Assembly: GCF_038087665.1 (NCBI RefSeq)
Contig: NZ_CP149925.1
Location: 2,542,870-2,606,869, forward strand
Length of the DNA stretch: 64,000 nt
From: Gallaecimonas sp. GXIMD4217
GTDB taxonomy: Bacteria; Pseudomonadota; Gammaproteobacteria; Enterobacterales; Gallaecimonadaceae
Reading direction: 5' to 3'
Of this stretch, positions 12,175-41,474 are shown in pieces (positions within the stretch are counted from its first letter, which is position 1; every line of letters starts with the position of its first letter). Under the pieces are notes generated by a model. The model did no database searches. It was given only the letters and a program-made list of their open reading frames with translations, and was not told where the DNA came from. The translations under genes were made by a program, and so were the position numbers.

Positions 12175-14007
<1,833 letters not shown>

Positions 14008-23363: not shown

Positions 23364-23372
23364 CCATTTAAC
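23364..23372. repeat. Left copy of the 9-bp target-site duplication of the IS
   Basis: CCATTTAAC, identical to 24456-24464 and directly abutting the IS inverted repeat. Nine bases is the duplication length typical of the IS903 group. Confidence 0.92.
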
Positions 23373-24455: not shown

Positions 24456-24464
24456 CCATTTAAC
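24456..24464. repeat. Right copy of the 9-bp target-site duplication of the IS
   Basis: CCATTTAAC, matching 23364-23372 and abutting the right inverted repeat. Confidence 0.92.
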
Positions 24465-24577
24465 TACACCACGCAAGGATGTCTTGTCAACCACACTGCC
24501 ATTTGAATCACCACCATCATTTTTATCAGTCATAATAATCACCAGTAATTAGTAAAGATATCAAACTCTAATTTGCA

Positions 24578-24841
24578 TCAATCGCCATCGAAATTTATCT
24601 TAAACTCTGCAACCAACGGCAAGTGATCTATTACGACTGCCTTATATTCAGATAAAGTCATTTCTAGTATTTCATGCATAGGCACTATCTTTAATATACC
24701 TTCAAGGTATTCTTGCTCCCCTATATCAGTGAAGGCATATCCATCAAGAAGATTTCCAATATGAGTGCTCCCTCTGGTTTCACTAATATGGCTGCCTTGC
24801 CCAGCACTGTGCACTATACGAAATCCTAAGCCTGTCTCCAT
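24578..24841 (-). CDS. Small protein of unknown function, possible EEP-domain remnant
   Basis: 87 residues. The C-terminal YKAVVIDHLPLVAEFKI resembles the last strand of endonuclease/exonuclease/phosphatase enzymes (the SDHxPxxAEF motif), and GLGFRIVHSAGQGSHI could match a preceding strand. The rest of such an enzyme is absent, so it is either a truncated remnant or an unrelated short protein. No signal peptide. Starts 13 bp after the stop of the membrane-protein gene upstream and precedes the interrupted coiled-coil gene, so it sits inside the leftward island operon. Confidence 0.5.
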   Translation of the reverse strand: METGLGFRIVHSAGQGSHISETRGSTHIGNLLDGYAFTDIGEQEYLEGILKIVPMHEILEMTLSEYKAVVIDHLPLVAEFKINFDGD

Positions 24842-24854
24842 AAATTAACATAGC

Positions 24855-25658: not shown

Positions 25659-25705
25659 ATTGAACTCCTGTCATTCCAATTACACTGCCTATCTGGAATC
25701 CTGGT

Positions 25706-26257
25706 TTAATCTGATGCTTTATGGCTATGCATCATTCTATCCACTGAGAGCCCTTTATTTAGGCTCACAACGCCCTTGTAGATATACTCTTCATCATATG
25801 CTGATGCGTATCGGATCGATAACTCCACATCTTTCGATGCCAATAACGACATCATTTCAAGTTTACAGCCAAGGATGTCGGCACCAGTAACGGATATAAG
25901 ATGCACTTCTTCTGAAGGCTTTAACACTGCCCCTACAGGAAGGTATCTGTTGACAAAACAGTCTGGGTTCAACCCAACACTTTCATACATTACCCTCAAA
26001 TCACCAGCCGTTAAGTCAAAAGCCTCTTGATTGATAATGATTTTTGCTGACTTAATAAAGGCTGGGCCAACGCCATCATTACTGACAAATACGCCGTCTC
26101 TGCCTTTATCGCCTGTCACTACAGGATTGCTTAACAGATACGGTTTCAGGGAAAGCCTGTTATGCTCTCTTGTTACAACTCCCTGCCAGATGGATACTAC
26201 TAATGCAATTATTGCTATAACAGTTACAGCAATATTCATTGTCTTTTCAAGGCTCAT
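25706..26257 (-). CDS. Single-helix membrane-anchored protein of unknown function
   Basis: 183 residues. One N-terminal helix (IAVTVIAIIALVVSIWQGVV, about 8-27) anchors a soluble beta-rich domain (SLKPYLLSNPVV, VFVSNDGVGPAFIKSAKIII). The NxGxGPA pattern with an Ig-like alternation is common in membrane-anchored proteins found beside defence and restriction genes, but it does not define a function. Member of the leftward island operon, 47 bp after the membrane protein start on the coding strand. Confidence 0.65.
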   Translation of the reverse strand: MSLEKTMNIAVTVIAIIALVVSIWQGVVTREHNRLSLKPYLLSNPVVTGDKGRDGVFVSNDGVGPAFIKSAKIIINQEAFDLTAGDLRVMYESVGLNPDCFVNRYLPVGAVLKPSEEVHLISVTGADILGCKLEMMSLLASKDVELSIRYASAYDEEYIYKGVVSLNKGLSVDRMMHSHKASD

Positions 26258-26302
26258 ATAAGACCTCCCAACAAAGAAACATCTTTGTTTTTGCAGATGA
26301 TG

Positions 26303-26686
26303 TCACCCGGTTTTCGCATCCCGGCCAGCAGAAAAGTAATAAGTAACAACACTGCCGACGAGCATAGAGGCGAATGCCAGGACTTCAGTAAAATGAGGGT
26401 TTTGGCTAAAGGCCAGGACGAAGACTATTACTAGCATGGCGAATACAACGCCCATTGCCAGAAGTGGCTTGGCTCGTTTATTGAGTCGCTCTGTTACTGG
26501 CTCGGCCATCCCTATGCCGCCACAAGCCCCACAAAGCAAACCGATATGTTCATTCCCTTTCAGTTCATTCTTCTTAATGCAGGCGGTACAGCTTTTACTT
26601 TCCACACCATTCTTACATGTCCCTGTCCCGGCACAGTGGGCGCATGGGTACAAGTTAGATCTAATGCTTTCCAAGCTAACCTCCAA
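26303..26686 (-). CDS. Zinc-ribbon protein with two membrane helices
   Basis: 127 residues. The N-terminal third has DnaJ-like cysteine pairs (YPCAHCAGTGTCKNG, CTACIKKN, LLCGACGGIGM) that would bind one or two zinc ions. Two helices follow (about 72-92 and 100-118). No family named with confidence. It starts 5 bp after the stop of the YdjM-like gene, so the two are probably cotranscribed. Confidence 0.65.
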   Translation of the reverse strand: MEVSLESIRSNLYPCAHCAGTGTCKNGVESKSCTACIKKNELKGNEHIGLLCGACGGIGMAEPVTERLNKRAKPLLAMGVVFAMLVIVFVLAFSQNPHFTEVLAFASMLVGSVVTYYFSAGRDAKTG

Positions 26687-26691
26687 GAGGC

Positions 26692-27060
26692 CTATATCTT
26701 CCCCACAATGGGGAGCGATTTCTTTGTGAACGAATCAAGGAGTAAGTGGCTTAGGTATGCACCCCCGCCAATCAATAACAGTTGCCTCATCAACTGTTTT
26801 CCTGCTGTTTCCGGTTCCCAGCCATAAAGTTTTTTCATTCCGTAGAACATCGTTACCGCTACAAAAAAGCTATGAAAAAACTGGCGATGGTTAGGATGTA
26901 AAGCAGGTTCCAGAATGTCCGGCAACCTGCCGCCGATACTGCCAATCAGTGCTGCGGAAAACGGGTCTACAGCAAAAGACCCGGCATTCTTCCTATCAAG
27001 CATGCAAAGCAATGCTCCCGTGACAGCACCTGCCGTTTGGTGTGTCTTACCATTCGCCAA
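26692..27060 (-). CDS. YdjM-like (LexA-binding, membrane-bound metal-dependent hydrolase) family protein
   Basis: 122 residues. The start ANGKTHQTAGAVTGALLC, the DxxLPDxxEP-type segment GRLPDILEPALHPNHRQFFH and a following helix with HS and HLLLDSFT are the histidine/aspartate pattern of the YdjM/PF04307 family, which is short here. Several hydrophobic helices place it in the inner membrane. The start is a TTG, with GGAG eight bases upstream that overlaps the end of the 57-residue gene; that site decides the start. Island operon member. Confidence 0.7.
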   Translation of the reverse strand: MANGKTHQTAGAVTGALLCMLDRKNAGSFAVDPFSAALIGSIGGRLPDILEPALHPNHRQFFHSFFVAVTMFYGMKKLYGWEPETAGKQLMRQLLLIGGGAYLSHLLLDSFTKKSLPIVGKI

Positions 27061-27062
27061 CG

Positions 27063-27236
27063 TTACTTCTCCTTCCTGACGCCTTTGAACGGGGTTTTGT
27101 CAGAGGTTTTCACATCCATGAATCGTCCCGTGTCCTTGTCCCTCTTGACCCAATGTCCGGAAGGGGTTTGGGTTTGAGAACGATTACGAACGGCACCATT
27201 ACGATGCCCGTCACCAGTCGGGGGGTTAGTAGCCAT
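27063..27236 (-). CDS. 57-residue basic small protein
   Basis: ATG GCT ACT... through TAA encodes 57 residues, too short for many gene finders. It is basic and hydrophilic: NPPTGDGHRNGAVRNRSQTQ, then SGHWVKRDKDTGRFMDVK and TPFKGVRKEK. The ending resembles a small conserved bacterial family (TGRFMDVKxxxxPFKGVRKE) of unknown role. GGAGAG lies eight bases before the ATG. Its stop overlaps the ribosome-binding site of the YdjM-like gene, so translation is likely coupled. Confidence 0.7.
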   Translation of the reverse strand: MATNPPTGDGHRNGAVRNRSQTQTPSGHWVKRDKDTGRFMDVKTSDKTPFKGVRKEK

Positions 27237-27266
27237 GAGTACTCTCCTCTTTGTCAGTCAGCAGGC

Positions 27267-27476
27267 TTAGCGTGTGGAACCGCCAAGACACCAATGGCAG
27301 TTGTCGTAACCTTGCCTTTTCGCCTCTTCCAGCGACGAAAACGGCTTATCGTGTCCAGCGCGGATGATTTCATCGATCTGGCAAGTGGTTTTTTCGTTAT
27401 CCAGATCATGGACCTCAGTGGTGTTGGTGTTACCGAGATAACGTTCTCCGTTCATATTTCCGGTGTAGCGGCGCAT
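27267..27476 (-). CDS. Small predicted metal-binding protein
   Basis: 69 residues. The pattern HDLDNEKTTCQIDEII, AGH, and GYDNCHWCLGG offers Cys-His-Cys-Cys ligands like the N-terminal metal site of Ada-type domains, so zinc binding is plausible. No function can be assigned. Start at the ATG preceded by AGGAGAG; this leader is nearly the same as that of the next small gene. First gene of the leftward island operon, reading from the divergent promoter shared with the WYL regulator. Confidence 0.65.
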   Translation of the reverse strand: MRRYTGNMNGERYLGNTNTTEVHDLDNEKTTCQIDEIIRAGHDKPFSSLEEAKRQGYDNCHWCLGGSTR

Positions 27477-27507
27477 GGTTACTCTCCTAGGTTGTGGTTG
27501 CATGACA

Positions 27508-27537
27508 ACCATACGATCTAATATTGATAGCGGTCAA
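27508..27537 (-). promoter_or_regulatory. Promoter of the leftward island operon
   Basis: On the minus strand TTGACC, 18 bases, TATGGT, ending about 30 bp before the first ATG. Its -35 box is only 17 bp from the -35 box of the divergent WYL promoter. Confidence 0.6.
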
Positions 27538-27558
27538 GATCTTTTTTCGATCGATTGA
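27534..27558. promoter_or_regulatory. Candidate WYL-regulator operator between divergent promoters
   Basis: TCAAGATC and GATCGATTGA form an imperfect inverted repeat whose outer TCAA and TTGA halves overlap the two divergent -35 boxes. A dimer bound here would block both promoters, as expected for an autorepressing BrxR/CapW-type regulator. Confidence 0.4.
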
Positions 27559-27583
27559 ACTATCAGAAACACTCACATACTAT
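27555..27583 (+). promoter_or_regulatory. Promoter of the WYL regulator
   Basis: TTGAAC, 17 bases, TACTAT, about 34 bp upstream of the ATG. Near-consensus sigma-70 promoter. Confidence 0.6.
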
Positions 27584-27616
27584 CCTGACAATAAGATAAC
27601 GAGAGGAAGCAGGATC

Positions 27617-28510
27617 ATGCCGCATCCGAGACTATTAGAGATGCCTCAGGCACAGCGGGAGCGTGTGTTCCATATAGAGTTCAGGCTGTACTTCCTTGGC
27701 ACCGTGCACAGAAGCGACTTGATAGAGCGCTTCGGCATAAAGGAAGCGGCTGCATCGAGGGATTTGGCTGAATACAGGAAGATACGCCCTGACAACATGG
27801 TCTTCGATACCAAGTCCAAGGCCTACTTCAAGGGGGACTGTTTCGACCCCCTATTCGAATACACTCCCAAGCAGGTACTCTCAGCTTTGTCGCAGGGAAT
27901 GGGGGCTCACTTTGCTGGCATGCATACATCCATGATCGCCTGCGAAACCCCGGTGCTCCTGAACCATCCATCTGTTGAAGTCCTTTCAGCACTATCAACA
28001 GCAATCCACCAGGGGCAGGCAGTTCACATTGAATACTGCTCGCTGAGCAGTGGCACCTCAGAGCGAGAGATTGTGCCCCTGGCCTTAGTAGATAACGGAC
28101 TCCGCTGGCACGTCAGGGCTTATGACCGGAAGCGGAACCGCTTTGCGGATTTTGTCCTCACGCGTATAACAAATGCCGTTGTGCGGTTCGGGCATGTTGA
28201 GCGTCATGAGAAGAAGGATGCTGATATCCAGTGGAACCGGATCGTTGAAATGGAGATTGTCCCTCACCCGAACGAAAAGAACGTTGAGCACCCCAACGCT
28301 GTTGAACTCGATTACGGCATGAAGGATGGTGTTCTGAAAGTGAACATCCGTGCGGCAGTTGCAGGCTACGTCTTACGCCGCTGGAACGTTGATTGCTCTC
28401 CTGACCACTCGCGGAAAGGAAAGGAATATCAACTATGGCTGCGTAATACTCCGGCGCTTTATGGCGTGGAAAACCTTAGCATCGCACCAGGATACGGGTC
28501 AGAAGCCTAG
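27617..28510 (+). CDS. WYL-domain transcription regulator, BrxR/CapW-like
   Basis: 297 residues. An N-terminal winged helix (about 15-60; VHRSDLIERFGIKEAAASRD) is followed by the linker FDTKSKAYFKGDCFDPLF. A WYL domain (about 125-200) has VHIEYCSLSSG, IVPLALVDNGLRWHVRAYDR and FADFVLTRI. A C-terminal WCX-like domain (about 230-290) ends the protein. This order and length match the BrxR/CapW regulators that repress phage-defence operons such as BREX and CBASS. Here it diverges from a six-gene operon of orphan membrane and zinc-binding proteins, which is not a defence system I recognise. The ATG is preceded by GAGAGGA. Confidence 0.85.
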   Translation: MPHPRLLEMPQAQRERVFHIEFRLYFLGTVHRSDLIERFGIKEAAASRDLAEYRKIRPDNMVFDTKSKAYFKGDCFDPLFEYTPKQVLSALSQGMGAHFAGMHTSMIACETPVLLNHPSVEVLSALSTAIHQGQAVHIEYCSLSSGTSEREIVPLALVDNGLRWHVRAYDRKRNRFADFVLTRITNAVVRFGHVERHEKKDADIQWNRIVEMEIVPHPNEKNVEHPNAVELDYGMKDGVLKVNIRAAVAGYVLRRWNVDCSPDHSRKGKEYQLWLRNTPALYGVENLSIAPGYGSEA

Positions 28511-28552
28511 TCATTATTGAACACCCGGGGCGCTGCCTGCGTAGTCCATCAA

Positions 28553-28562
28553 GGTGGTACAC
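28553..28562 (+). repeat. Third GGTGGTACAC copy at the right island end
   Basis: Same sequence and orientation as the pair at 16195-16217. It lies 88 bp inside attR. The 11-mer GCTCTTCGAAG at 28624-28634 is the inverted copy of CTTCGAAGAGC at 16169-16179, a second symmetry shared by the two ends. Confidence 0.5.
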
Positions 28563-28649
28563 TTATAGACAGGCCAGGCACACCACATGCCTGGCCATAG
28601 ACGAAAAATCAATGAGTTAGGACGCTCTTCGAAGCCTAAGCCGATGTCA

Positions 28650-28673
28650 GTTCGAATCCTCTCATCGGCACCA
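28650..28673 (+). repeat. attR: right 24-bp direct repeat
   Basis: Identical to the last 24 bases of tRNA-Thr (16109-16132). The identity starts at the T-loop and ends at CCA; the rest of a tRNA is absent upstream. Marks the right end of the island, 5 bp before the lysO stop. Confidence 0.9.
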
Positions 28674-28677
28674 GTCC

Positions 28678-29568: not shown

Positions 29569-29623
29569 GGCGTTGTCTCACAGGAACAAGGAGGCCAGAG
29601 CATAGCCAGTGCCGGCCAGGGCC

Positions 29624-29815
29624 TCAAGCCGGTTGCGGTGAACGGCGCTGCTGGATACGCGACCACAGCCTTTCGTGGAAGAAATAGGCCACCGTATTGC
29701 AGGCCGGCTCCACCAGCGCCATGACGCCGCCCACCAGCAGCGAGCTCGTCATCAGGTAGGCAACGGCAAAGGCGATACTCATATGCACGCAGGCAAAGGT
29801 CAGGGTCTTGATCAT
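29624..29815 (-). CDS. DUF2061 family small membrane protein
   Basis: 63 residues. KTLTFACVHMSIAFAVAYLM and LLVGGVMALVEPACNTVAYFFHERLW are the two helices and the signature of DUF2061 proteins. Function unknown. ATG start. A weakly Fur-box-like AT-rich stretch precedes it. Lies between lysO and the first S8 protease of the kinase/protease locus and is transcribed away from the protease. Confidence 0.8.
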   Translation of the reverse strand: MIKTLTFACVHMSIAFAVAYLMTSSLLVGGVMALVEPACNTVAYFFHERLWSRIQQRRSPQPA

Positions 29816-29898
29816 GGCTGGGCTCCCTTGAATACGCTCAAATGGTATCCATTCTCATTTGCAATTGAAAGCAAGAAAAGTCGATGGCCACATTCGCC

Positions 29899-29937
29899 TG
29901 AGGGAAATCCCCCAAGGGCACTGAGGGATCACGCCCA
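29899..29937. promoter_or_regulatory. Tandem palindromic operator upstream of S8 protease A
   Basis: Two 16-bp sites, TGAGGGAAATCCCCCA at 29899-29914 and TGAGGGATCACGCCCA at 29922-29937, with starts 23 bp apart. The same pair occurs upstream of the paralogous protease (41348-41386) with the same spacing. It ends 61 bp before the ATG, a distance that would suit an activator site. Confidence 0.65.
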
Positions 29938-29998
29938 TGGCCTGCCTTTGTGTCAGTGGTCACTATCAGAGTCGACCACTACCACAAGGAACACCACC

Positions 29999-32467
29999 AT
30001 GACAGCCTACAAGTTCCACCGCCTGCGCGCCCTCTTTGGGGGCGCCGTCCTCTACTTCGGCAGCCATGCCGCCCTGGCCCTGAGTCTGGATCCGCAACTG
30101 GCCCAGCTGGCCGCCACGGCCGACACCGGTGACAAACTGGAGGTCATAGTCACCTTCGAGGGCGACGGCCCCCTCGGCCCGGACCAGCGCCAGCTGCTGA
30201 CCGACCTCGGCCTCAGCGGCCTGACCCTGCAGTCCCTGCCCATCGCCGGGGTGCTGGCCACCCCGGCCCAGCTGGCCGCCCTGCAGCAGCTGGACGGCAT
30301 CCGCTCCCTCTACCACAACCAGCCCCTAGCCTGGGACAACGCCGAGGCCACCGCCCTGACCGGGGTCGACCGGCTGCGCCTGGATCCCCAGCTGCGCAGT
30401 GCCGGCCTGCCCTACTCTGGCCGCGGCATCGGCGTGGTGATCAACGACTCCGGGGTGGACGGCAGCCACAACGACATCCGCTTCCCGGAACATGCGGTGC
30501 AGAACGTGCTGGCCCAGACCAACCTGCGCAGCTTCAGCGACACCCTGCCCATCAGCTACCAGCAGGACGTGATCAACACCGATATCGGCGGCGGCCACGG
30601 CAGCCATGTGGCCGGCATCATCGGCGGCAACGGCGCCATGTCCTCGGGCCGCCAGGAAGGGGTGGCCCCGGGTGCCGATCTGATCGGCTACGGCTCCGGC
30701 GCCGGCCTGTTCATCCTCGACACCCTGGGCGGCTTCGACTACGCCCTGACCCACCAGTACGACTACAACATCAGGGTCATCTCCAACTCCTTCGGCTCCA
30801 CGGGCGATATCGGCAGCGACTTCGATCCGGATCACCCCACCAACGTGGCCACCAAGGCCCTGGCCGACCGCGGCGTGGTGGTGGTGTTCTCGGCCGGCAA
30901 CTCCGGCTCGGGCGAAGGCACCATCACCGGCAACTTCAAGAAGGCGCCCTGGGTGATCACCGTGGCCGCCGGCGACAAGCAGGGCCGGCTGGCGGACTTC
31001 TCCTCCCGGGGCGTGCGCGACAGGGAAGGCGAGACCGAGGTCGACGGCACCCCCTATGTCTGGGTGGACAGGCCCACCATCACCGCCCCCGGCGTCGACA
31101 TCGTCTCGGTGCGCGCCAGTACCTCGGGCCCCCTGGGCGCCCTCAGCCTGAGTGGCGACCTCGAGGCCATGCCCGAAAGCGAGCTGCCCTACTACACCGT
31201 CATGAGCGGCACCTCCATGGCCGCCCCCCATGTGTCGGGGATAGTAGCGCTGATGCTGGAAGCCAACCCCGGCCTGGGCTGGCGTGAGGTCAAGGCGATC
31301 CTCCAGGACACCGCCACCAACATGCCCGGTTACGAATCCTGGGAGGTCGGCGCCGGCTACGTCAACGCCCATGCCGCCGTACGCGCCGCTGCCGGCTTCG
31401 CCGACGCCTATGGCGACACCACCAAGCACAACCGCAGCTTCCATGCCGGCGTCGACAGCTCCCTGGCAGGCCAGTCCAGCCACCAGGTGCCCTTCAGCCC
31501 GGTCGGCGAACCCGAGCAGGTGCCCTTCGAGGTGGCCGAGGGCATCAGCCTGATCAGCGCCTCGGCGCGGATCGGCAGCAACACCCTGGCCCTGGTGCTG
31601 ACCGATCCCGACGGCATTCGCTACGGCTCCGGCATCGCCCTGCCGGTGCTGGGCGAAAACGTCGCCGCTACCGCCCCCGGCAAGCCGGGCACCTGGACCC
31701 TGAGCCTGCGCGGCGTCGGCTCCGTTTCCGGCGTGCCCCTGGATCCGACCGGCGCCAGCAACGGCATCGGCCTGCCCGAAACCATCACCGCCACCGTCCG
31801 CCAGCAACGCATCGACGGCTACAATGGCATCGACGATGTCTTCGGTCACCCCGCCGAGGCCTTCGCCCTTAAGGCGGTGGCCGAGCAGCTGATGGACGCC
31901 AGGACCAACGGCTTCGAACCCGATGCCAGGCTGACCCGCGCCGAACTGGCCGATTACCTGACCCTGGCCGGCGCCGCCCGCCAGAGCATCGCAGGCAACG
32001 CCGGCGGCTTCGACGACGTGGCCGCGACCCTGGCCGGGGCCGTCAACGCCGTGACCAGCCCGGGCGCCGCCCTCAAGGATCTGTATCAGCGTCAGCAGGC
32101 CCTGGTTCCGGCCCTGGCCGAGGGCCGCTTCGGCCCGGGGGGCCAGGTCGAACGCAGCCTGCTGGCCTACAGCCTGATCCAGAGCCTGGGCCTGGAAGCC
32201 CAGGCCCAGGACGCTCCCGAGCAGCTGCATGTGGATCACCTGGGCCAGGCTGTGCCTGTGGTGGACAGCGACAGCATCCCCGCCCAGTGGCGCGGCCATG
32301 TGCAACTGGCGCTGGATCTGGGCCTGCTGGCCCCCCGCTTCGCCGTGGAGCAGGGCCCCTTCGAGCTGACCCCGACCCTGAAGGCCTACTTCGAGCCGGC
32401 CGGAGTGGTCAGCCGTGGCGACTTCGCCGCCGCCGCGGTTCGCCTGCAGGCCAGGTATCTGGATTGA
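29999..32467 (+). CDS. Secreted S8 serine protease A with C-terminal SLH-like repeats
   Basis: 822 residues. Signal peptide (LFGGAVLYFGSHAALA, cleavage near 28), I9-like propeptide (about 45-110) and subtilase domain with Asp150 (INDSGVDGSH), His200 (GGHGSH), Asn301 (SAGNSGSG) and Ser406 (SGTSMAAPHVSG). A beta domain lies at about 480-600. The C-terminus (about 610-822) holds repeats such as LTRAELADYLTLAGA and VSRGDFAAAAVRLQ, which look like S-layer-homology motifs and suggest cell-surface or pilus-like attachment. ATG with AAGGA upstream. Converges on the NarL-type regulator, sharing a terminator, and is paralogous to the protease at 38799-41279. Confidence 0.9.
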   Translation: MTAYKFHRLRALFGGAVLYFGSHAALALSLDPQLAQLAATADTGDKLEVIVTFEGDGPLGPDQRQLLTDLGLSGLTLQSLPIAGVLATPAQLAALQQLDGIRSLYHNQPLAWDNAEATALTGVDRLRLDPQLRSAGLPYSGRGIGVVINDSGVDGSHNDIRFPEHAVQNVLAQTNLRSFSDTLPISYQQDVINTDIGGGHGSHVAGIIGGNGAMSSGRQEGVAPGADLIGYGSGAGLFILDTLGGFDYALTHQYDYNIRVISNSFGSTGDIGSDFDPDHPTNVATKALADRGVVVVFSAGNSGSGEGTITGNFKKAPWVITVAAGDKQGRLADFSSRGVRDREGETEVDGTPYVWVDRPTITAPGVDIVSVRASTSGPLGALSLSGDLEAMPESELPYYTVMSGTSMAAPHVSGIVALMLEANPGLGWREVKAILQDTATNMPGYESWEVGAGYVNAHAAVRAAAGFADAYGDTTKHNRSFHAGVDSSLAGQSSHQVPFSPVGEPEQVPFEVAEGISLISASARIGSNTLALVLTDPDGIRYGSGIALPVLGENVAATAPGKPGTWTLSLRGVGSVSGVPLDPTGASNGIGLPETITATVRQQRIDGYNGIDDVFGHPAEAFALKAVAEQLMDARTNGFEPDARLTRAELADYLTLAGAARQSIAGNAGGFDDVAATLAGAVNAVTSPGAALKDLYQRQQALVPALAEGRFGPGGQVERSLLAYSLIQSLGLEAQAQDAPEQLHVDHLGQAVPVVDSDSIPAQWRGHVQLALDLGLLAPRFAVEQGPFELTPTLKAYFEPAGVVSRGDFAAAAVRLQARYLD

Positions 32468-32490
32468 AAAGGATGCGTTCCCTGACATTG

Positions 32491-32518
32491 GCCGGGCTGG
32501 ATGCCCGGCTTTTTTTAT
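32491..32518. terminator. Terminator between S8 protease A and the response regulator
   Basis: GCCGGGC/GCCCGGC stem with a TGGAT loop and seven T, 24 bp past the protease stop. The T-run overlaps the last codon of the convergent regulator. Confidence 0.85.
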
Positions 32519-33153
32519 GTGAGCAGGCCGCGCCTGACAGCCAGACGAACCAGCTCGGCGGTGTTGTGCACCTGCAGCTTGTCCATCAGCCTGGTGCGGT
32601 GGTTTTCGGCGGTCTTGACGCTGATATCGAGGCGGCTGGCGATCTCCTTGGTGGTGCGCCCCTCTATGACCAGGTGGAAGACTTCCCGCTCCCTGTTGGT
32701 GAGATCGCCATACGGATCGCTCAGATCCCGCTCCGGCTCGCGCATGCTGTCGGCCAGGATCTGCGCCGCCCTGGGGCTGAAGTAGCCCTTGCCCTGGGCC
32801 AGGCTCAGCACCGCCTGGCACAGTTCGGCGGAGGCACTGTCCTTGACCAGGTAGCCGGCGGCGCCGGCCTTGACCATGTGCAGCACGTACTCCTCCTCCT
32901 CGTGCATGGTCAGCACCAGCACCCGGATCTGGGGCTGCTGCTGGTGCAGCCGCCGCACCACTTCGATGCCGTTGAGGCGCGGCATGGTGACGTCGGTAAC
33001 CAGGATGTCGGGCTTGAGTTCCAGGGCCTTCTCCACCGCCTCCATGCCATCACTGGCCTGGCCGATCACCCGGATCTCACCCTGGCCGTCCAGCAACGAC
33101 ACCAGGCCCTGCCTCACTATGGTGTGATCATCTGCCACCAGGATGCGGATCAT
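32515..33153 (-). CDS. NarL/FixJ-type response regulator
   Basis: 212 residues. Receiver domain with ADDH at 7-10, phosphoacceptor Asp54 (ILVTDVTMPRLNG), Thr (LTMHEEE) and Lys (GYLVKDS). The C-terminal LuxR helix-turn-helix (about 148-205) reads LTNREREVFHLVIEGRTTKE and SVKTAENHRTRLMDKL. Starts 24 bp after the stop of the cytosolic histidine kinase, its obvious partner. Last gene of the five-gene operon and the best candidate to bind the tandem TGAGGGAAATCCC palindromes in front of both flanking proteases. Confidence 0.94.
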   Translation of the reverse strand: MIRILVADDHTIVRQGLVSLLDGQGEIRVIGQASDGMEAVEKALELKPDILVTDVTMPRLNGIEVVRRLHQQQPQIRVLVLTMHEEEEYVLHMVKAGAAGYLVKDSASAELCQAVLSLAQGKGYFSPRAAQILADSMREPERDLSDPYGDLTNREREVFHLVIEGRTTKEIASRLDISVKTAENHRTRLMDKLQVHNTAELVRLAVRRGLLT

Positions 33154-33177
33154 GGCACTGCTCCTCTTGTCTTGCGT

Positions 33178-33885
33178 TCAAATGTCCAGGTGCACGCGGA
33201 TCTCGGTGCCGCTGCCGGGACTGGTGTTGATCACCAGCTCGCCTCCGAACAGCTCGACCCTGTCCTGCATGCTGCGCAGGCCGAAGCCGTCGCCCTGGGC
33301 CGCCAGGGCGCTGTCCAACTCGAAGCCGGCGCCGTTGTCGGCCACGCTCAGCAGCAGCCGCTGGCCGGTGCGCAGCAGGCTGATATCCACCACCGAGGCC
33401 TTGGCATGCTTCTGGGCGTTGGCCAGGGCCTCCTGGGCCACACGAAACAACAGCGTCTCCAGCTCCGGCGCCAGGCGCTGATCCAGGCCGGACAGCTGCA
33501 GCGGCACCTGCCAGCCGGTGCGCTGCTCGGTGAGCCGGCACAGCCAGTTGAGGGCCGGCCCCAGGCCGAGGTCGTCGAGTATGGCGGGCCTGAGCAGCCG
33601 CGCCAGGTTGCGGGTGTCGGCCAGGGCCTGCTCGGCCAGGGCCAGGGCATCGCGGCTGGCATCGCTGGGCGCCAGAGCCGCCAGCCGGTGCTTGAGGGCG
33701 GTCAGGGTCTGGCCCAGGCCGTCGTGCAGCTCCCGGGCCAGGCGCTTGCGCTCTTCTTCCTGCACCCGCCAGACGCTGCGGGCCAGGCCACGAAAGCGCT
33801 GCTCGCCGGCCATCAGCTGCCGGGTCAGCCTGTCCTGCTCCAGGGCCAGCTGGTGCAGCCGGCTCATCACCTCATGCTGCTCCAT
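33178..33885 (-). CDS. Cytosolic sensor histidine kinase (HisKA_3 type)
   Basis: 235 residues. A short N-terminal coiled coil is followed by the NarX-like H-box LARELHDGLGQTLTALKHRL with His54, then an HATPase domain with EALANAQKHAKAS, VADNGAGFEL and GFGLRSMQDRVELFGG. No membrane segment or separate sensor domain is visible, so the input must come from a partner. It overlaps the end of the Ser/Thr kinase gene by 14 bp, which suggests that kinase or the FHA-GAF protein feeds it. Start chosen at MEQHEVMSRL; the longer frame upstream is the reading of the kinase gene in another frame. Confidence 0.92.
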   Translation of the reverse strand: MEQHEVMSRLHQLALEQDRLTRQLMAGEQRFRGLARSVWRVQEEERKRLARELHDGLGQTLTALKHRLAALAPSDASRDALALAEQALADTRNLARLLRPAILDDLGLGPALNWLCRLTEQRTGWQVPLQLSGLDQRLAPELETLLFRVAQEALANAQKHAKASVVDISLLRTGQRLLLSVADNGAGFELDSALAAQGDGFGLRSMQDRVELFGGELVINTSPGSGTEIRVHLDI

Positions 33886-36800
33886 CGTCCTCTCTCCACC
33901 GTTCGGGAATCCAGGGCAGGGCCAGGAAGGCCTGCCGTTGTTGTTGGTCCAGGCCGCGACGGAACCAGGCCGGCAGGGCCTGGCAGGTCGCCTGTTCACA
34001 ACGCAGGGCCTGTTGGCGCAGCTGGAACCAGGATTGGGCCGGCGGCGCCTCCAGGCCCTGGTACCAGCGCCAGATCCGGGCCGGGCTCACCGCCTGGGAC
34101 GGCGCCAGTCCCAGCCGCGCCGCCAGCACCTGCCGCCAGCCCGCCTCCCAGGCCGGCAGGGGCCGCGCCATCAGCCCTTCCAGCTCGGTCCTGGCCTGTG
34201 AACGCAGGCCCTGCTCCAGCAGCCATTCGGCCCGGATCAGCCGCTGCCGGGCCTGCTGGTCCGGCGTGGCGTCGGGGTCCAGGCCGTGGGCCAGGGGATC
34301 GCCGCCGTAGCGCAGCGCCAGCTCGGCCCGCAGCAGCAGGATCTCCCGCCTGGCACGGGGATCCTCAAGCTCGTCGGCGAGGCGGGCGGCAGCGGCCAGC
34401 TCGGCCTCGGCCTGGACGCTCTGGCCCCGCCACAGGCCCAGCTGGGCCAGGTGGATCATGGCCGACAGCCGGGCCTGCTGATCCCCCAGCGCCTCGGCCT
34501 CCTGGCGGCTCTGCAGCCAGGCGCGGGTGGCCTGGGGCCAGCGGCCGTCCTGGCCATCCAGGGTGGCCAGGTGCTGGCGACAGCGCATGTCGCCGCGGCT
34601 GTCCCCCATCGCCTGGTAACCGGCCTGGGCCTGCTGGAAATAGACCCTGGCCTCCTCGCCGTTGCCGGACAGCATGGCCATGTAGCCGACATTGACCTGG
34701 CTCTCGGCCACCAGGCCCGGATCCCCCAGCTCCCGGCGCAGGCGCAATGCCTTGAGGTACTGGCCCTTGGCCTCGCCGTAGCGGCCCAGCTCCTCCAGCA
34801 GCAGGCCCTTGTCGTTGAGGATGCTGGCCAGCAGCGCCGGGGCATGGTCGCCCTGGAGCAATTGCTCGGCCCTGTCCAGCAGCTTGCCGGCCTGCTCCAG
34901 CTGCCCGGCGATGGCGCTCAGGAAGGCCAGGTTGGCCAGCAACCCGGCCTGGCCGGGCTCGTCCCCCAGGGCCTGGCGCCCAGCCAGGGCCTGGCGGTAG
35001 TAGTCCCGGGCCAGGGCCAGCTCTCCCAGGTGCTCCTGGGCCACCCCCAGGGCGGCCAGCACATCGGCCTCCAGGGCCCCCTGGCGCTGGCTGCGGGCCA
35101 GCACCAGGGCCCGGGCCAGGGCATTTTCCAGGGCAGGCCTGGGCTGGCCCTGGCGGATCTGCTGGCGGCCCAACAGGTACCAGCCCCGGGCATCGGCCGG
35201 GCTCACCGCCAGCCAGTCCTGCAGCGCGGCGATGGCGGCGTTGAGATCCCGGTGCTCGGCCAGCAGCTCGGCATTGAGGTGGGCCAGGCGACCGTCGAAG
35301 GGCTGGCGCGCCCGCAGCAGGGCCAGGGTGGCCAGGGCCTGCTCGGCGGTGCCGGCCAGGCGCTGTTGTTCGAACTGGATGCGCAGGGCCAGGGTCGAGT
35401 CGGGATCGCCCAGGCGCTCGGCGGCCTTGGCCAGGGCCTGGGTCGCCCCCTCGGCCCGGCCTAGGCCGTCATAGGCTCGGAAGGTCAAGTACCAGCTCAG
35501 CGCCGAGGGCCATTGGCGGGTCAGGCGGTTGAGGCTGGCCAGGGCCTGGTCGTGTTCGCCCCGGTCGAGGTGCTGGCGCACCAGGTTGACCTCGGCCAGC
35601 TGAGCGGCCGGCACGGCCGGTGGCGCCTGGGCGCCCCTGTCCAGGCGGATCAGCAGCTGACCGCCCAGCTCGCCCAGGGCGGTCAAGACCGCCCCCGGGG
35701 CGCTGTGGCTTTCCAGCAGTTCCCCGGACAGCTGGCCAGGAGGGCCGAATCGCAGCGCCAGGTGCCAGTCCTCCTGCAGGGGCCGGATCCCGGGTGCCAC
35801 CACCCAGGCGGCCTCGAAGGCCTGCAGCAGCTCCCGCTGCTGGGCCGGGCTCAGGGGCGGCTGCCAGTCCATCTGGCGGATGTAGTTGAAGACCTGTTTC
35901 TGTTCCACCAGCTGCAACCTGGCCGAGCCCCCCAGCTGGCTGTAGAGCTGCTCGGCGGCGGCCTCCGACAGCCAGGCCGGCAGGGGCGCGGCCACCTCGG
36001 CCGGCAGGATCAGCAGCGGCGGCACCGCCGTGGCGCCGCCTTCGTCCCGGGGCGAGCCGGGCGGCCAGCGCCACCAGGCCAGAACCGCCAGCAGCACCAG
36101 CGCCGCCCCCCAGTACCAGGGCCGGCGCCGCGCCGGCCGGGGCGCCAGCCGGGCCAGGGCCTGGGAGGCGTCGGCGGGACGCTGGCGGGGATGGATGGCC
36201 AGCAGGGCCATGATCAGCCGGCTCAGGCCCAGGGGAATGTCGTGACAGCGCAGGTGGGGCGGCTGGGGCCGGCGCGCCAGGCGCGCCTGCATGCGCGCCT
36301 CGGGGTCCTCCCCTTCGAAGGGCAGGCAGCCGGTGGCGGCCTCGTAGAGGATCACCCCCAGGCTGAACAGATCGGAGCGGCCGTCCAGGGGCCGGCCCTG
36401 GAGCTGCTCCGGGGACAGGTAGTCCGGGGTGCCGGCACGGCCACGAGTGGCGCCGTCGGCATCCAGGGCCCGGGCAATGCCGAAATCGCTGATATGGGGC
36501 TGACCCTGGCCATCGAGGAGAATGTTGTCGGGCTTGAGATCCAGGTGCACCACCTGCTTGCGGTGGGCCAGCGCCAGGGCGTCAAGCAGTTGCCGGGCCA
36601 GTGTCGCCACCACCGCCGGCGGCAGCCGCCCTTCCCGGTCGAGGCGCTCGGCCAGGCTCTCGCCCTCGATCAGCTCCATGGTGCAGCACAGCCCCTGCTC
36701 GGTCTCGACCAGATCGTGCAGGCGCACCACGTTGTCGTGGCTGATCCGGCGCGCCAGCAGCAGCTCGTTGCCAAGCGCCTTGGCGTCGCCGCCGTCCAGC

Positions 36801-36973
36801 AGCTTCAGGGCCACCGCCACCCCCAGTCGTTCATCCCGGGCCCGGTAGACGAAACCGTGGGCGCCTCGTCCCAGCAGCCGCTCTACGACGAAGCGCCCCG
36901 CCAGGCGCGCCCCGGCCGCCAGGGGCTCCGGCAGGTTATCCAGGGTCTGGGTCGGCTGGGGATCATGAACCAC
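33872..36973 (-). CDS. Membrane Ser/Thr protein kinase with extracytoplasmic TPR-like repeats
   Basis: 1033 residues. N-terminal Hanks-type kinase (about 25-275): P-loop GRGAHGFV, Lys57 in VALKLLD, catalytic loop VVHLDLKPDN with Asp145 and Asn150, DFG 163-165, GTPDYLSPEQ. The usual HRD is HLD here, so it is a non-RD kinase that may not need activation-loop phosphorylation. One membrane helix lies at about 287-303 (YWGAALVLLAVLAWW). A TolB/CsgG-like segment (310-470) and a long run of TPR-like helical repeats (about 470-900) follow. It sits between the FHA-GAF gene and the histidine kinase gene, joining Ser/Thr and His-Asp signalling in one operon. Confidence 0.92.
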   Translation of the reverse strand: MVHDPQPTQTLDNLPEPLAAGARLAGRFVVERLLGRGAHGFVYRARDERLGVAVALKLLDGGDAKALGNELLLARRISHDNVVRLHDLVETEQGLCCTMELIEGESLAERLDREGRLPPAVVATLARQLLDALALAHRKQVVHLDLKPDNILLDGQGQPHISDFGIARALDADGATRGRAGTPDYLSPEQLQGRPLDGRSDLFSLGVILYEAATGCLPFEGEDPEARMQARLARRPQPPHLRCHDIPLGLSRLIMALLAIHPRQRPADASQALARLAPRPARRRPWYWGAALVLLAVLAWWRWPPGSPRDEGGATAVPPLLILPAEVAAPLPAWLSEAAAEQLYSQLGGSARLQLVEQKQVFNYIRQMDWQPPLSPAQQRELLQAFEAAWVVAPGIRPLQEDWHLALRFGPPGQLSGELLESHSAPGAVLTALGELGGQLLIRLDRGAQAPPAVPAAQLAEVNLVRQHLDRGEHDQALASLNRLTRQWPSALSWYLTFRAYDGLGRAEGATQALAKAAERLGDPDSTLALRIQFEQQRLAGTAEQALATLALLRARQPFDGRLAHLNAELLAEHRDLNAAIAALQDWLAVSPADARGWYLLGRQQIRQGQPRPALENALARALVLARSQRQGALEADVLAALGVAQEHLGELALARDYYRQALAGRQALGDEPGQAGLLANLAFLSAIAGQLEQAGKLLDRAEQLLQGDHAPALLASILNDKGLLLEELGRYGEAKGQYLKALRLRRELGDPGLVAESQVNVGYMAMLSGNGEEARVYFQQAQAGYQAMGDSRGDMRCRQHLATLDGQDGRWPQATRAWLQSRQEAEALGDQQARLSAMIHLAQLGLWRGQSVQAEAELAAAARLADELEDPRARREILLLRAELALRYGGDPLAHGLDPDATPDQQARQRLIRAEWLLEQGLRSQARTELEGLMARPLPAWEAGWRQVLAARLGLAPSQAVSPARIWRWYQGLEAPPAQSWFQLRQQALRCEQATCQALPAWFRRGLDQQQRQAFLALPWIPERWREDDGAA

Positions 36974-36997
36974 TGGCGATGGCGCCTCCTGTCATTG

Positions 36998-37885
36998 TCA
37001 GTGCCGGGACCAGGCCAGGACGCTGGGCAGGGGCGCCCTGGCCGACCGGCCGCTGAGCGCCTCGAGATCGGCCCTGAGCATGGCGGCCACTATGGCCATG
37101 GCGGCGTTGTTGGCCATGGCCTCGAGTATGGCCAGATCCAGCTCGGTGATGGCCTTGCCCTCGGCCAGGCTGTCGGTGTAGATGACCCCAAGGCGCTCGT
37201 CGCCGTAATCCAGCGGCAGGCAGGCCAGGGCGCGGATGGCCTTGAGCTGTACGCTGGGCTGCTGGCCCAGGTAGCCGTGGGCCTGGCTGTCGCTGGTGAC
37301 CAGGGCCTCGCCGCCTTCCAGCACCAGGTTGACGGCGCTGCGCGAGCCCACGAAATCCGGGCTCAGCAGCGCCTGGGGAGAAACCCCCAGCACGGCCCTG
37401 ATGGCCAGCTCGCCGCCGGGCTCCTTGAGCAGGATGAAGGCCCGGTCGGTGTCGGCCAGCCCGACCATGGCCTCCAGCACCTGGGCCAGCAGCCGCTGCA
37501 GATCCGGCTCGCCGTTGAGCTGCCTGCCGTAGCGGGCACAGGCCTGCCAGCGGGCCGCCTCCCGGCCCTGCTGCTCCTGGAGCTGCTGCTGGCCGAGGAT
37601 CTGGAAGCGGGCGTTGAGCTGGCCGAAGGTCAGCCAGCGGTCGCCGTCGATATGGGCGCGGGTGATGGCCTCGCCGTTGACCGTGGTGGCGTTCTTGGAA
37701 CCCAGATCCTCCAGGGTCCAGCCCCTGCCCGCCCCCAGGAAGCGGGCGTGCTGGCGGGACACTGAGCCGTCTTCAATACAGATCTGGCAGTGGGGATCCC
37801 GGCCCAGGGTGTAGCTGGCCTGCTCGTCGAGCAGGAACACCTTCACCGGCTGCTGGGGAAAATAAAGGGACAACCGGGCCGGCAT
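36998..37885 (-). CDS. FHA-GAF domain protein
   Basis: 295 residues. FHA domain (about 10-97) with YTLGRDPHCQI, SVSRQHARFL and GSKNATTVNG, the phosphothreonine-binding residues Arg29, Ser43, Arg44, His46 and Asn70. A GAF domain (about 120-275) contains AFILLKEPGGEL, SRSAVNLVLEGGEAL, CLPLDYGDERLGVIYTDS. It probably recognises a phosphothreonine made by the adjacent kinase and senses a small ligand. Start at the ATG giving MPARLSLYF. The gene lies 24 bp upstream of the kinase start and 4 bp after the secreted-protein gene. Confidence 0.9.
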   Translation of the reverse strand: MPARLSLYFPQQPVKVFLLDEQASYTLGRDPHCQICIEDGSVSRQHARFLGAGRGWTLEDLGSKNATTVNGEAITRAHIDGDRWLTFGQLNARFQILGQQQLQEQQGREAARWQACARYGRQLNGEPDLQRLLAQVLEAMVGLADTDRAFILLKEPGGELAIRAVLGVSPQALLSPDFVGSRSAVNLVLEGGEALVTSDSQAHGYLGQQPSVQLKAIRALACLPLDYGDERLGVIYTDSLAEGKAITELDLAILEAMANNAAMAIVAAMLRADLEALSGRSARAPLPSVLAWSRH

Positions 37886-37889
37886 GGCG

Positions 37890-38678
37890 TCAGTCCTGCA
37901 GCAGGCTGAAGCGCAGGGTGTCGGCCTGGCCCAGCAGGCGCCCGGCCAGGTTGTCCAGATCCCGGCTGGAACGCCAGACATTGGCGATGGCCTGGCCCTG
38001 CTGGGCGTCGACGAGGCGGGTGAAGGCGGCCAGCTGCGACAGCGCCAGACCGGTATCACCCAGTTCATGGGCCTGCTCGGACAGGCTCAGCAGCTGCTGC
38101 AACTGGGCCAGCAGCGCCGCCGGCAGGGCGCTGCCCTCGAGGATGGCCCCCAGGCGCTGGTACTTTGCCGCTACCACGGCGTCGTTGTCGCGCTGGTCAC
38201 GCACCACCAGCCACTCGGAAAAATTGCCGGTACGGCCCCGGGCCCGGTAGGAACCGGCACCATGGTTGGCGGTGACGTCCCTGAAATCGCCGCCGAGGGG
38301 CGCCTTGAACAGCCGGTAGCCGGCGTCGAAATCGAGATCATGGGTGTGGATGGCCACCTCCGCCGGCCCTTCGAAGGCCAGGCCCTGATCGGCGGGCGGC
38401 TCTATGACGATCATCATCGGGAAGGCCGCCACCGGGGTGACACCCGCCGGCAGCCTGGCCAGCAGGGCGGCGTCGGTGGGGGAAAACAGGTAGGCGTCGA
38501 CGCCCGCACTGTGCTCGGTCAGGCCCAGGGCCCTGTCGAAGGAGAGCGTCAGCTCGACGCTGTGCAGGCCCTCGGCCAGGGTGAACTCGGCCTTGTCCCG
38601 GGCAATGCGGCTTTCGGTAACGGCCGCCAGGCAGCTAAAGCTCAGCAGGCAGGCGAGCAGACTCAGTTGACGCACCAT
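37890..38678 (-). CDS. Secreted protein of unknown family, first gene of the kinase operon
   Basis: 262 residues. Signal peptide (QLSLLACLLSFSCLAAV, cleavage near 19) with no lipobox in the right context. A beta-rich first half (ELTLSFDRALGLTEHSAGVD, FPMMIVIEPPADQG) and a helical second half (about 175-262) follow. Family not recognised with confidence. As the only periplasmic protein encoded within this operon, it could present a signal to the TPR domain of the kinase, but that is inference. GGAGG lies upstream of the ATG. Confidence 0.7.
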   Translation of the reverse strand: MVRQLSLLACLLSFSCLAAVTESRIARDKAEFTLAEGLHSVELTLSFDRALGLTEHSAGVDAYLFSPTDAALLARLPAGVTPVAAFPMMIVIEPPADQGLAFEGPAEVAIHTHDLDFDAGYRLFKAPLGGDFRDVTANHGAGSYRARGRTGNFSEWLVVRDQRDNDAVVAAKYQRLGAILEGSALPAALLAQLQQLLSLSEQAHELGDTGLALSQLAAFTRLVDAQQGQAIANVWRSSRDLDNLAGRLLGQADTLRFSLLQD

Positions 38679-38751
38679 GGTTTGATTCCTCCAGGATAAC
38701 GGCGTCCTTGCCTGATTCTGTTACATGACATTAACAACAAATGCGGCGCCA

Positions 38752-38795
38752 AATAAAGCCGGGGCATGAGACTGTGCTCCAGCTCACACCCCGGT
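38752..38795 (-). terminator. Terminator after S8 protease B
   Basis: On the minus strand CCGGGGTGTGAG and CTCATGCCCCGG form a long stem followed by CTTTATTT, 4 bp after the protease stop. It separates the protease from the five-gene operon downstream on the same strand. Confidence 0.65.
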
Positions 38796-38798
38796 CCC

Positions 38799-41279
38799 TC
38801 ACTGCTGGTAGGCGTCGTAGAGACGACCAGCGATCACCGCGTAATGGGCGCGGCTGATCCTGCTGGCCGGCTCGAAGCGGGCCACCAGGCTGGGCGTGAT
38901 GTCATAGGGGCCTTGCCGCACCTCGAAACGCACACCCAGCAGGCCCAGGTTCAGCGCCTCCTGCACATGGCCCAGCAGCTCGGCCGGCACCTCTGTGGCG
39001 TCCAGCACCGGCACCTGCTCGCCCATGTAGTCCACCCTCAGCTCGCCGTCGTGGGCCAGGGCTTCGGCTTCACGGCCCAGGCTCTGCACCAGGCTGTAGG
39101 CCAGCTCCGCCTTGGTCACCGCCTGGCGGGGGTTGAACGCCTCGGCGCTGCGCATTACCGGTGACTGGGCGTTGCTCCTGTCTTTGAGGGCGCCTCCCAC
39201 CGCGGCCACGGCGCTGACGAAGGGCATGTCCTGAGCCCTGACGTCGCTGAAGCTGACCAGAGGCTCGTTGAGCAGCGGTCGGCTCTGGCGCACCGCAGCG
39301 CCCATCACCAGGTAGCGGGCCAGCTGGTTGCGGCGCAGCGGCTGATCCGGGGCGAACTTGTTGTTGGCCAGGCCATCCATCAGCCGTTCGCTGATGGCGT
39401 ATTCGATGGCGCCTTGGGCGGGATGGCCCTGGCTGTCGTCGATGCCCTCGAAACCGTCGGAGATCAGGAAGCTGATCTGGCCGCCGATCATCTCCGGCAG
39501 GCCCGGGCCATTGGTGGTGCCTGTGGGATCCGGCTGCACCCCGGACAGCGAGGTCAGGCCGTATACGCTCAGGATCCAGGTACCGGCCTGGCCGGGGGCC
39601 GAGACCCGCATGTTGCTGCCCAGCACCGGCAGGGTCAGGTTACCCAGGTATTCGGTGCCGTCCGGTGCGGTCAGCTTGAGCTTGGTGGTATTGGCCAGGG
39701 CCTCGGCCGAGGCCTTGATCCAGGCCACCTCCTCGCCAACCTCGAAGCTGTAGCTTTCGGACGGCCCCACCGGGCTGAACAGCAGCTCGAACCGGTCGAC
39801 CCTGTCGCTGACAAAGAGCTGTTCGTTGGCATTGAAGTCGTCGCGCAGATTGTTGACGGTGCCCTGGTCCGCCGTGCGCTCGTCCAGGGCCGCCGCCACC
39901 GCCGCCTTGGCGTTGACATAGCCGGCGCCCACCTCCCAGCGCTCGTAGCCTGGCATATTGGTAGCGGTTTCCATCAGCAGCCGCCTGATATCCAAGGGCG
40001 TCAGCTCGGGGTTGGCCTCCAGCATCAGGGCGGCGATACCGGCCACATGGGGGGTGGCCATGGAGGTGCCGGAAATCATGGTGTAGTAGGGAACGTGCTC
40101 CAGGGCCATGGCATCGAGATCCTCGGCGCCGCCGTTGGAGGCCAGGTTGGTCACGGCCCGGGTAGAGATGATGTCCACCCCGGGCGCCACTATGGAGACC
40201 TCGTTCCGGTATTGCCACTGGCTGCCGTCGGGCATGGTGAAGCTGCCGGACTCGCCTTCCTTGCCCCGGGAGGAGAAGCCGGCCAGGCCGCCCGACTTGG
40301 TGCCGGCACCCACGGACAGGCCCCAGGGGATCTGGGCGTAGGGGTTGTGGGTGTCTTCGCCGGGGCCGTCGTTACCGGCGGCGAACACGCTCAGCACGCC
40401 CAGCTTGTAGGCCTTGTAGGAGGCCAGGCTGATGGGGCCATGGGGGTCGAAGCTTCCGGAGCTGCCCCAGGAGTTGCTCATGATGCGGATGGGGCTGTTG
40501 AAGTCCCACAGGTGGGCGATGCTGTAGTCGTAGCCGCCCAGGGCGTCGAGGATGGACAGGCCGGCGCCGGAGCCGTAGCCGATCAGGTCGGCGTCCACGG
40601 CCACCCCCTGGTAAAGGCCGCCGGACTGGGCACCGGTGCCGCCGACGGTGCCGGCACAGTGGGTGCCATGGCCCACGTTGAGATCGGAGTTGGCCTGGCC
40701 TTCCAGCCACAGCCCTTCCGGAAAGACCGGCAGCAGGGCGCGGCCGACGCTGGCATTGGTGATGGCCTGGACGTTTTCCACCACCTTCTCGCCCAGGCGC
40801 AGATCACCGTGGGTAGCGTCTATGCCGGAGTCGTTGACCAGCACCGTGACGCCCTTGCCGGTGAAGGTGACGCCGTTGCGATCCAGGAAGGCGTCGGACT
40901 GCAACTCGCTGACGCTGGTGACCTCGCGGGCGTCGTGGTTGCTGTAGCTCAGGGTGCGATTGAGGTACACGGAGCGCACATCGGGGCGCTGCAGCAGGGC
41001 GCCGATCTGCTCGGCATTGGCCAGAGCGCCGACGATGGGCAGGGTCTGAAACTGCACGCCCTGGCTGATGCCCAGGCCGTTGAGAGCGCGGATCTGCTCC
41101 GGGGTCACCGCCTCCATCTGGTCATAGGTCACCACCACCATCAGCTGCTCATCCGGGGCCAGGCCGTCCAGCTTCTGGGCCAGCTGGCTGCCCAGTACGC
41201 CCTGGGCCACGGCATTGAGACTGAAGCCCGCCAGCATGGCGCCACCAGCCATCAGGGAAATCAGGTTGCGCTTTTTCAT
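38799..41279 (-). CDS. Secreted S8 serine protease B with C-terminal SLH-like repeats
   Basis: 826 residues, paralogue of the protease at 29999-32467: triad residues Asp150 ([10 protein letters not shown]) and Ser406 ([12 protein letters not shown]) fall at identical positions, with His204 (VGHGTH). Signal peptide [20 protein letters not shown], propeptide about 45-110, C-terminal SLH-like repeats ([47 protein letters not shown]). Start at the ATG with GGAG six bases upstream; four codons further upstream another ATG lacks a site. Preceded by the tandem palindromic operator shared with its paralogue. Confidence 0.9.
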
Positions 41280-41347
41280 GATCTGCTCCACTGGTTATGA
41301 AGTTGTTAATACCGCACCAGTGTCGGGGCTGGGCTGCGCCAGCACCA

Positions 41348-41386
41348 TCGGGGAGATCCCCCAGGACGACTGAGGGATTTCCCTCA
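41348..41386. promoter_or_regulatory. Tandem palindromic operator upstream of S8 protease B
   Basis: On the minus strand a perfect palindrome TGAGGGAAATCCCTCA (41371-41386) is followed 23 bp later, start to start, by TGGGGGATCTCCCCGA (41348-41363). Same motif, order and spacing as at 29899-29937. It ends 68 bp before the ATG. A possible -10 box (TATTAA) lies between it and the start codon. Confidence 0.65.
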
Positions 41387-41474
41387 GCGCCGAACCGTTT
41401 GCCGAAAAAACGACCGCAATACAAGCCATTGCCGGGTGACAGTCAGACGGGATGCTCTTATAATTCAGCGCCAC

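Follow-up and report, generated by a model that had tools for sequence, protein, structure and literature searches.

A conserved palindrome upstream of linked S8 proteases in Gallaecimonas sp. GXIMD4217 and its relatives: a candidate activator-dependent promoter

A stretch of 64,000 nucleotides from the genome of Gallaecimonas sp. GXIMD4217 (contig NZ_CP149925.1, positions 2,542,870 to 2,606,869), here called the window, was analysed for the palindromes that stand in front of two S8 protease genes and for the signalling operon between these genes; proteases and operon together are referred to as the cluster. Protease A (29999-32467, plus strand, 822 amino acids) and protease B (38799-41279, minus strand, 826 amino acids) are paralogues with 46% identity, each with a Peptidase_S8 domain, one SLH domain and an N-terminus that by eye resembles a signal peptide (hydrophobic residues 6-24 in protease B). 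Protease B is followed, 120 base pairs (bp) after its end and on the same strand, by five genes with intergenic gaps of 4 to 24 bp (with the chosen starts), which encode a DUF6689 (PF20396) protein with a hydrophobic N-terminus (37890-38678), an FHA-GAF protein (36998-37885), a Ser/Thr protein kinase with a TPR region (33872-36973, 1033 amino acids), a histidine kinase with HisKA_3 and HATPase domains (33178-33885) and a NarL/LuxR-type response regulator (32515-33153, 212 amino acids), all on the minus strand. The start of the FHA-GAF gene was set at the ATG just past the DUF6689 stop, the alternative being a longer open reading frame (ORF) to 38068 that overlaps DUF6689; the start of the histidine kinase gene overlaps the end of the Ser/Thr kinase gene, and its product contains no hydrophobic segment above the hydropathy threshold used. 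The regulator, which we propose as the activator of the proteases, matches Response_reg (2.5e-29) and GerE (3.7e-19) and is therefore a NarL/FixJ-type (LuxR) response regulator, as had been predicted for the gene at this position between the proteases. No other protein of the operon gave a match to a DNA-binding domain. A terminator-like stem (32490-32511, consensus match only) lies between the convergent protease A and regulator genes.

Each protease gene is preceded by two 16-bp palindromes. They occupy 29899-29914 (distal, TGAGGGAAATCCCCCA) and 29922-29937 (proximal, TGAGGGATCACGCCCA) on the plus strand in front of protease A, and 41386-41371 (distal, TGAGGGAAATCCCTCA) and 41363-41348 (proximal, TGGGGGATCTCCCCGA) on the minus strand in front of protease B. 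The exact positions were re-read, and the identical tandem architecture described in the original prediction was recovered: site starts are 23 bp apart at both genes, the gap to the ATG is 61 bp for protease A (ATG 29999) and 68 bp for protease B (ATG 41279), and the flanking bases of the two promoters differ. Predicted -10 elements, CACTAT for protease A (29961-29966, plus strand) and GACACT for protease B (41324-41319, minus strand), stand at the offset of 39-44 that is conserved in relatives, and place the predicted starts near 29973 and 41312. At both genes the distal palindrome is thus centred at about -66.5 and the proximal one at about -43.5 from the predicted start.

The 3.35-Mb genome was searched for the tandem pair with its exact core, and two places were found, the two protease promoters. 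Allowing up to 3 mismatches added the same places read backwards, and a reversed-pattern control gave 0, so the pairing at 23 bp was found at the protease promoters only. Where the search for the pair was extended to the rest of this genome and 98 relatives, the hits outside the own genome (G000) all carried 3 mismatches and were treated as chance. The single palindrome behaves differently. A search of the window at up to 3 mismatches returned 5 rows against a shuffle mean of 1.1, some rows being one site on both strands. Genome-wide, the counts speak against a regulatory reading: TRRGGG-N4-CCCYYA is not enriched (3 perfect places against 2 in the control; 73 against 79 at up to 1 mismatch), and four congeners that lack the cluster hold 17 palindromes against 10 in the control. 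A single palindrome therefore says little in this GC-rich genus, and the decisive support has to come from conservation in relatives. An extra perfect palindrome at G000:C1:3165563 (L168), with no ORF of at least 90 amino acids starting within 700 bp on either side and no -10 element at the offset, was treated as chance.

Among 98 relatives, both proteases were found (E ≤ 1e-60) in one genome, G034, and the four congeners returned no proteases at this threshold and no regulator at E ≤ 1e-40. A kinase search (E ≤ 1e-40, 99 genomes) returned the own genome only and is uninformative on absence, since it missed the G034 kinase found by synteny. Relatives of protease B (E ≤ 1e-100) occur in 32 of 295 sampled genomes of the family of G034, which has Alteromonadaceae and Idiomarinaceae among its members and includes Pseudidiomarina; in G339, one of the 32, protease A alone was seen. 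The carriers known by name are Pseudidiomarina aquimaris, two Aestuariibacter and Marisediminitalea aggregata. For comparison, 40 regions from 31 genomes of the family other than G034 and one from G034 were fetched, and 44 loci were examined overall; L051, a weak clostridial match, was left out of use. The order of genes, from protease B through FHA-GAF, Ser/Thr kinase, histidine kinase and regulator to protease A, is found repeatedly, with protease A convergent with the operon in some genera and co-oriented in others. A regulator relative is present in 36 of the 44 loci and DUF6689, between protease B and FHA-GAF, in 33; the 11 others contain a protease that stands away from the operon or extra protease copies, or the locus is truncated by a contig or region end. 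Extra copies of protease B, some with a further regulator copy, are found in L100, L101, L102 and L104, with a palindrome before each protease.

The 44 loci and the window gave 77 protease upstream regions, L107 having been dropped as a duplicate of L047 before counting. The presence of the motif upstream of orthologous proteases had been named beforehand as the test that its absence would decide against the prediction, and the motif is there: TRRGGG-N4-CCCYYA matches at 10 or more of its 12 specified positions within 250 bp in 77/77 regions (5.4% in dinucleotide shuffles), and at 11 or more in 66/77 (0.5% in shuffles). The scoring consensus was set after the first relatives had been viewed, and to this extent the 77/77 count, not being blind, loses some of its weight. 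The consensus over the 77 promoters is TAGGGG-N4-CCCCTAT, with AT at offsets 15-16 in all 77, the T being outside the scoring positions. Cluster DNA totalling 729 kb contains 85 sites with a score of 11 or more, of which 66 lie within the 24 kb directly upstream of proteases. A second site (score of at least 9) 22-24 bp away was found in 16 of the 77 promoters, from genera g59 and g75, from G348 and from the window; the remaining promoters show one site at the threshold used. The 23-bp tandem of the window thus looks like a lineage variant of a basic one-site promoter.

What is kept in these promoters is the spacing of the palindrome to a -10-like element, because the ATG follows the palindrome at distances between 72 and 226. 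The element was scored, anchored on the proximal palindrome, as an A at offset 40 together with a T at offset 44 within the hexamer at 39-44, A and T being the two most conserved positions of a -10 element. This pair is present in 65 of the 77 promoters, where base composition predicts 7.3 and the next best offset gives 13; in a non-redundant set (below 70% identity) it is present in 37 of 45, with 8 at the next best offset. The A/T test was itself picked after the printed promoters had been viewed, which reduces what 65/77 can prove, and independent evidence comes from the sites outside the cluster and the other sites in cluster DNA described below. With a +1 position 7 bp after the -10 element, the palindrome is centred at about -43.5, and both window promoters (CACTAT, GACACT) fit this composite form. 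A site at a fixed distance from the -10 element and in the place of the -35 element characterises a class II activator-dependent promoter, and the predicted centre near -43.5 is the position of a class II activator. The original prediction had called the elements operators: the palindromes are present as described, but the one exact distance at which a -10-like element follows makes an activator site within a composite promoter the better reading.

A palindrome over the -35 region could also occlude the polymerase, and NarL represses at the frdA promoter (PMC4549865), so that the elements might be repressor operators at which the regulator or another protein blocks the promoter until the proteases are needed. 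We consider this unlikely. The conserved -10-like element is weak, and a sigma-70 scan found no promoter at either palindrome site (its one match, at 41436-41464, is on the other strand); moreover, a constant distance to the -10 element beside a variable distance to the ATG would fit an activator better. Another question is whether the likeness of the two promoters has any function, the proteases being paralogues with 46% identity, or is a leftover of their duplication. This appears very improbable, as the flanking bases differ between the promoters, and site and -10 spacing are kept below 70% identity and before unrelated genes.

To these unrelated genes leads a palindrome-only search of 57 genomes. 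In 32 cluster-bearing genomes of the family, 88 palindromes were found against 14 in the control, a figure that includes at least three repeat-like G128 sites (L188-L190) as well as the protease promoters; in 20 genomes of the family without the cluster, 15 were found against 12. A clear excess of the palindrome within the family is confined to cluster-bearing genomes. The G128 sites, TAGGGG-AGC(G/T)/CGCT-CCCCTA in near-identical contexts, look like a dispersed repeat and were rejected as promoters. From at least 48 listed loci outside the cluster, 40 were fetched, 37 of them from cluster-bearing genomes of the family, one from the own genome and two from cluster-free genomes. Among the 37, seven sites lie inside genes, and at eight the gene that follows encodes a further S8 protease (identified in L179 by BLAST only). 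Among the remaining sites, the -10 spacing is present before genes for DUF6689 alone (L174; L182 by likeness), for an extracellular nuclease of the ExeM/NucH type (L171, scoring 542 bits where the cut-off is 300; L178 by likeness), for an S15 peptidase (L183), for a 329-amino-acid protein whose tail resembles PEP-CTERM by eye (L194-L197, L203), for a GGDEF/EAL protein (L170) and for an RHS protein (L176). The spacing is missing at L172 (next gene for a small protein resembling a lipoprotein), at L175 and L180 (response regulator), L181 (Beta-Casp protein) and L199 and L201 (molybdopterin-binding protein), and also at L206, before a TonB receptor gene in a cluster-free genome. These sites had been found without use of the -10 element, and the spacing is present in 5 of 8 before S8 genes and 12 of 19 before other genes; on the opposite strand it appears in 4 of 27, and for sites inside genes in 2 of 16 readings. 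Within cluster DNA, 13 of the 19 other sites scoring at least 11 were examined; 12 of the 13 show the spacing on at least one strand, 10 of them before a gene for a secreted protein beside protease A and two directly before DUF6689 (L100, L120). As for the 'small dedicated regulon' of the original prediction, in other genomes its membership appears to extend beyond two proteases.

The small secreted proteins beside protease A (L048:21485-21985, L049, L050, L092-L095, L097, L098, L099) have PEP-CTERM-like tails by eye, with a possible link to exosortase sorting. Four of the ten small proteins were scanned and did not reach the PEP-CTERM models, the best score being 26.9 bits against a curated cut-off of 100, and 14.5 against 20.7 for Pfam PEP-CTERM. 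DUF6689, conserved and secreted-looking, accompanies the cluster and in other places is preceded by a site of its own (L174, L182). Its predicted fold is a good model (predicted local distance difference test score 90), for which no convincing solved relative was found (template modelling score of the best-ranked hit 0.30).

One clade (96/89) unites the window regulator with 36 cluster regulators and one duplicate, to the exclusion of 28 other regulators; the place of the window regulator inside the clade is unsettled, its branch being long. All clade members that cover the recognition helix (L101 does not) carry KT(A/V/I)E(N/H)HR, which was not seen in the 28 other regulators, where RTVETHR, KTVNSYR and similar sequences stand instead. 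The regulator is proposed as binder because the site excess follows the cluster, the cluster regulators are one clade and their recognition helix is distinct. Taken together, the palindromes are probably binding sites of the regulator encoded at 32515-33153, and they would act as the upstream half of a class II activator-dependent promoter. Another LuxR-family protein or an unrelated regulator might bind instead, the cluster regulator having other targets: the regulator query returned 43 first-look candidates in the own genome, and five g76 genomes keep the site with protease A on another contig, so nearness is not needed. We regard such a binder as improbable, given that the site excess tracks cluster presence across one family, that the cluster regulators are one clade with its own recognition helix, and that the regulator is the sole operon protein with a DNA-binding domain match.

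Several further observations weigh against binding by the cluster regulator at a composite promoter. The separation of protease A and regulator on different contigs in the five g76 genomes is one. The -10 pair is absent from 12 of the 77 promoters, and with a plain TATAAT score (at least 4 of 6) the peak at this offset is weaker, 23 of 76 against 17 at offset 42, the next best. Among the distant S8 sites, the spacing is missing in 3 of 8 and present on the wrong strand in 3 of 8; it is absent in 5 of 11 other target families, it occurs on the other strand as well in 2 of the 13 examined cluster-DNA sites, and it arises by chance in 2 of 10 readings of five sites that have no near gene start.

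Among known systems, DegS-DegU of Bacillus pairs a soluble HisKA_3-type kinase with a NarL-type regulator that controls secreted subtilases, subtilisin (aprE) among them. The kinase partner in the window is likewise of the soluble HisKA_3 kind, with HisKA_3 and HATPase domains and no hydrophobic segment. To our knowledge, DegU sites are not known as G-rich 16-bp palindromes, and we know of no FHA-GAF protein or Ser/Thr kinase linked to DegS-DegU. Against NCBIfam, the best 25 of 113 models were all below their cut-offs for the regulator, and none of these is named DegU. The closest solved structure to the regulator is DevR/DosR (3c3w, E 1.5e-38), likewise a NarL-subfamily regulator of a GGG/CCC palindrome, although the DevR/DosR regulon of mycobacteria differs in its targets, sensors and phylum. 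We know of no S8 proteases and no operon of FHA-GAF protein and Ser/Thr kinase linked to DevR/DosR.

In DosR, Lys179, Lys182 and Asn183 contact bases (PMC4082495), and the structure-search alignment places Lys, Glu and Asn at these positions here. The DosR probe holds a GGG/CCC palindrome with the core GGGACTAAAGTCCC (PMC5999986), in which the spacing is GGG-N8-CCC (GGGACT...AGTCCC), whereas it is GGG-N4-CCC in the consensus of the 77 promoters, which is thus not a DosR site. At DevR promoters the proximal site overlaps the -35 element, and adjacent secondary sites are bound cooperatively (PMC3029386); here the proximal site has its predicted centre at about -43.5, and a tandem is seen in only 16 of the 77 promoters. 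Phosphorylation of DosR by Ser/Thr kinases reduces its binding to DNA (PMC12919924); this gives cross-talk a precedent, but not the direction it would take here. The 16-bp 7-2-7 sites of E. coli NarL lie at -40 to -49 in napF and -38 to -47 in yeaR (PMC4549865). They resemble the present element as 16-bp inverted repeats of two heptamers around 2 bp, but the engineered NarL half-site TACCCCT (PMC4549865) has the opposite polarity to T(A/G)GGGGN, and genes and signal differ.

A mechanism compatible with this arrangement would begin with a signal that the Ser/Thr kinase and the FHA-GAF protein sense and that is relayed to the histidine kinase, which would phosphorylate the regulator. A regulator dimer would then bind the palindrome and recruit RNA polymerase; in the lineage of the window a second dimer, 23 bp or about two helical turns further upstream, could strengthen binding. 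The output would be secreted subtilases, joined in relatives by further extracellular enzymes and by surface proteins. Positive feedback is possible because protease B and the operon share a strand with a gap of 120 bp, so that transcription might read through from protease B into the signalling genes. The wider proposal, in which Ser/Thr kinase and FHA-GAF protein feed a two-component system within one operon with positive feedback, and this system uses a single type of composite promoter to switch on, throughout a family of marine bacteria, an extracellular degradation programme (several subtilases, ExeM-type nuclease, S15 peptidase, PEP-CTERM-like surface proteins and DUF6689), is offered tentatively, and we would rather not count on it: the pathway from kinase to regulator, in particular, is taken from gene order only.

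The distance between LysO and tRNA-Met is 166-437 bp in all four congeners. In the window they are separated by 11.9 kb (29569-41474) that hold both proteases and the operon, for which a gain of the island in this lineage is the simplest reading and losses in the congeners are the alternative. The island has 69.1% GC compared with 61.9% in the rest of the window; third-position GC is similar, and the difference does not decide on transfer. On the other side of LysO, a segment of 14.7 kb (14005-28677), whose GC content is low between about 15 and 27 kb and falls to 45%, contains an RHS protein with an Ntox37 domain, a transposase and ORFs without assignment. It looks like a second insertion at the same spot, because LysO stands directly beside the gene matching 12166-14004 of the window in four congeners.

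The combination of palindrome promoter, operon and secreted proteases was not found in the literature searches made, in which the sole match to all terms was a biorefinery review (PMC7303364). The parts are of known kinds; judged from sequence, their combination appears new as an on-switch system for secreted digestive enzymes. If true, it would offer a natural and compact example of one operon that couples a Ser/Thr kinase pathway to a two-component system. Alteromonadaceae have an important part in breaking down protein and DNA in the sea, and a readable promoter code tied to one regulator would predict which secreted enzymes are switched together, making their control directly testable.

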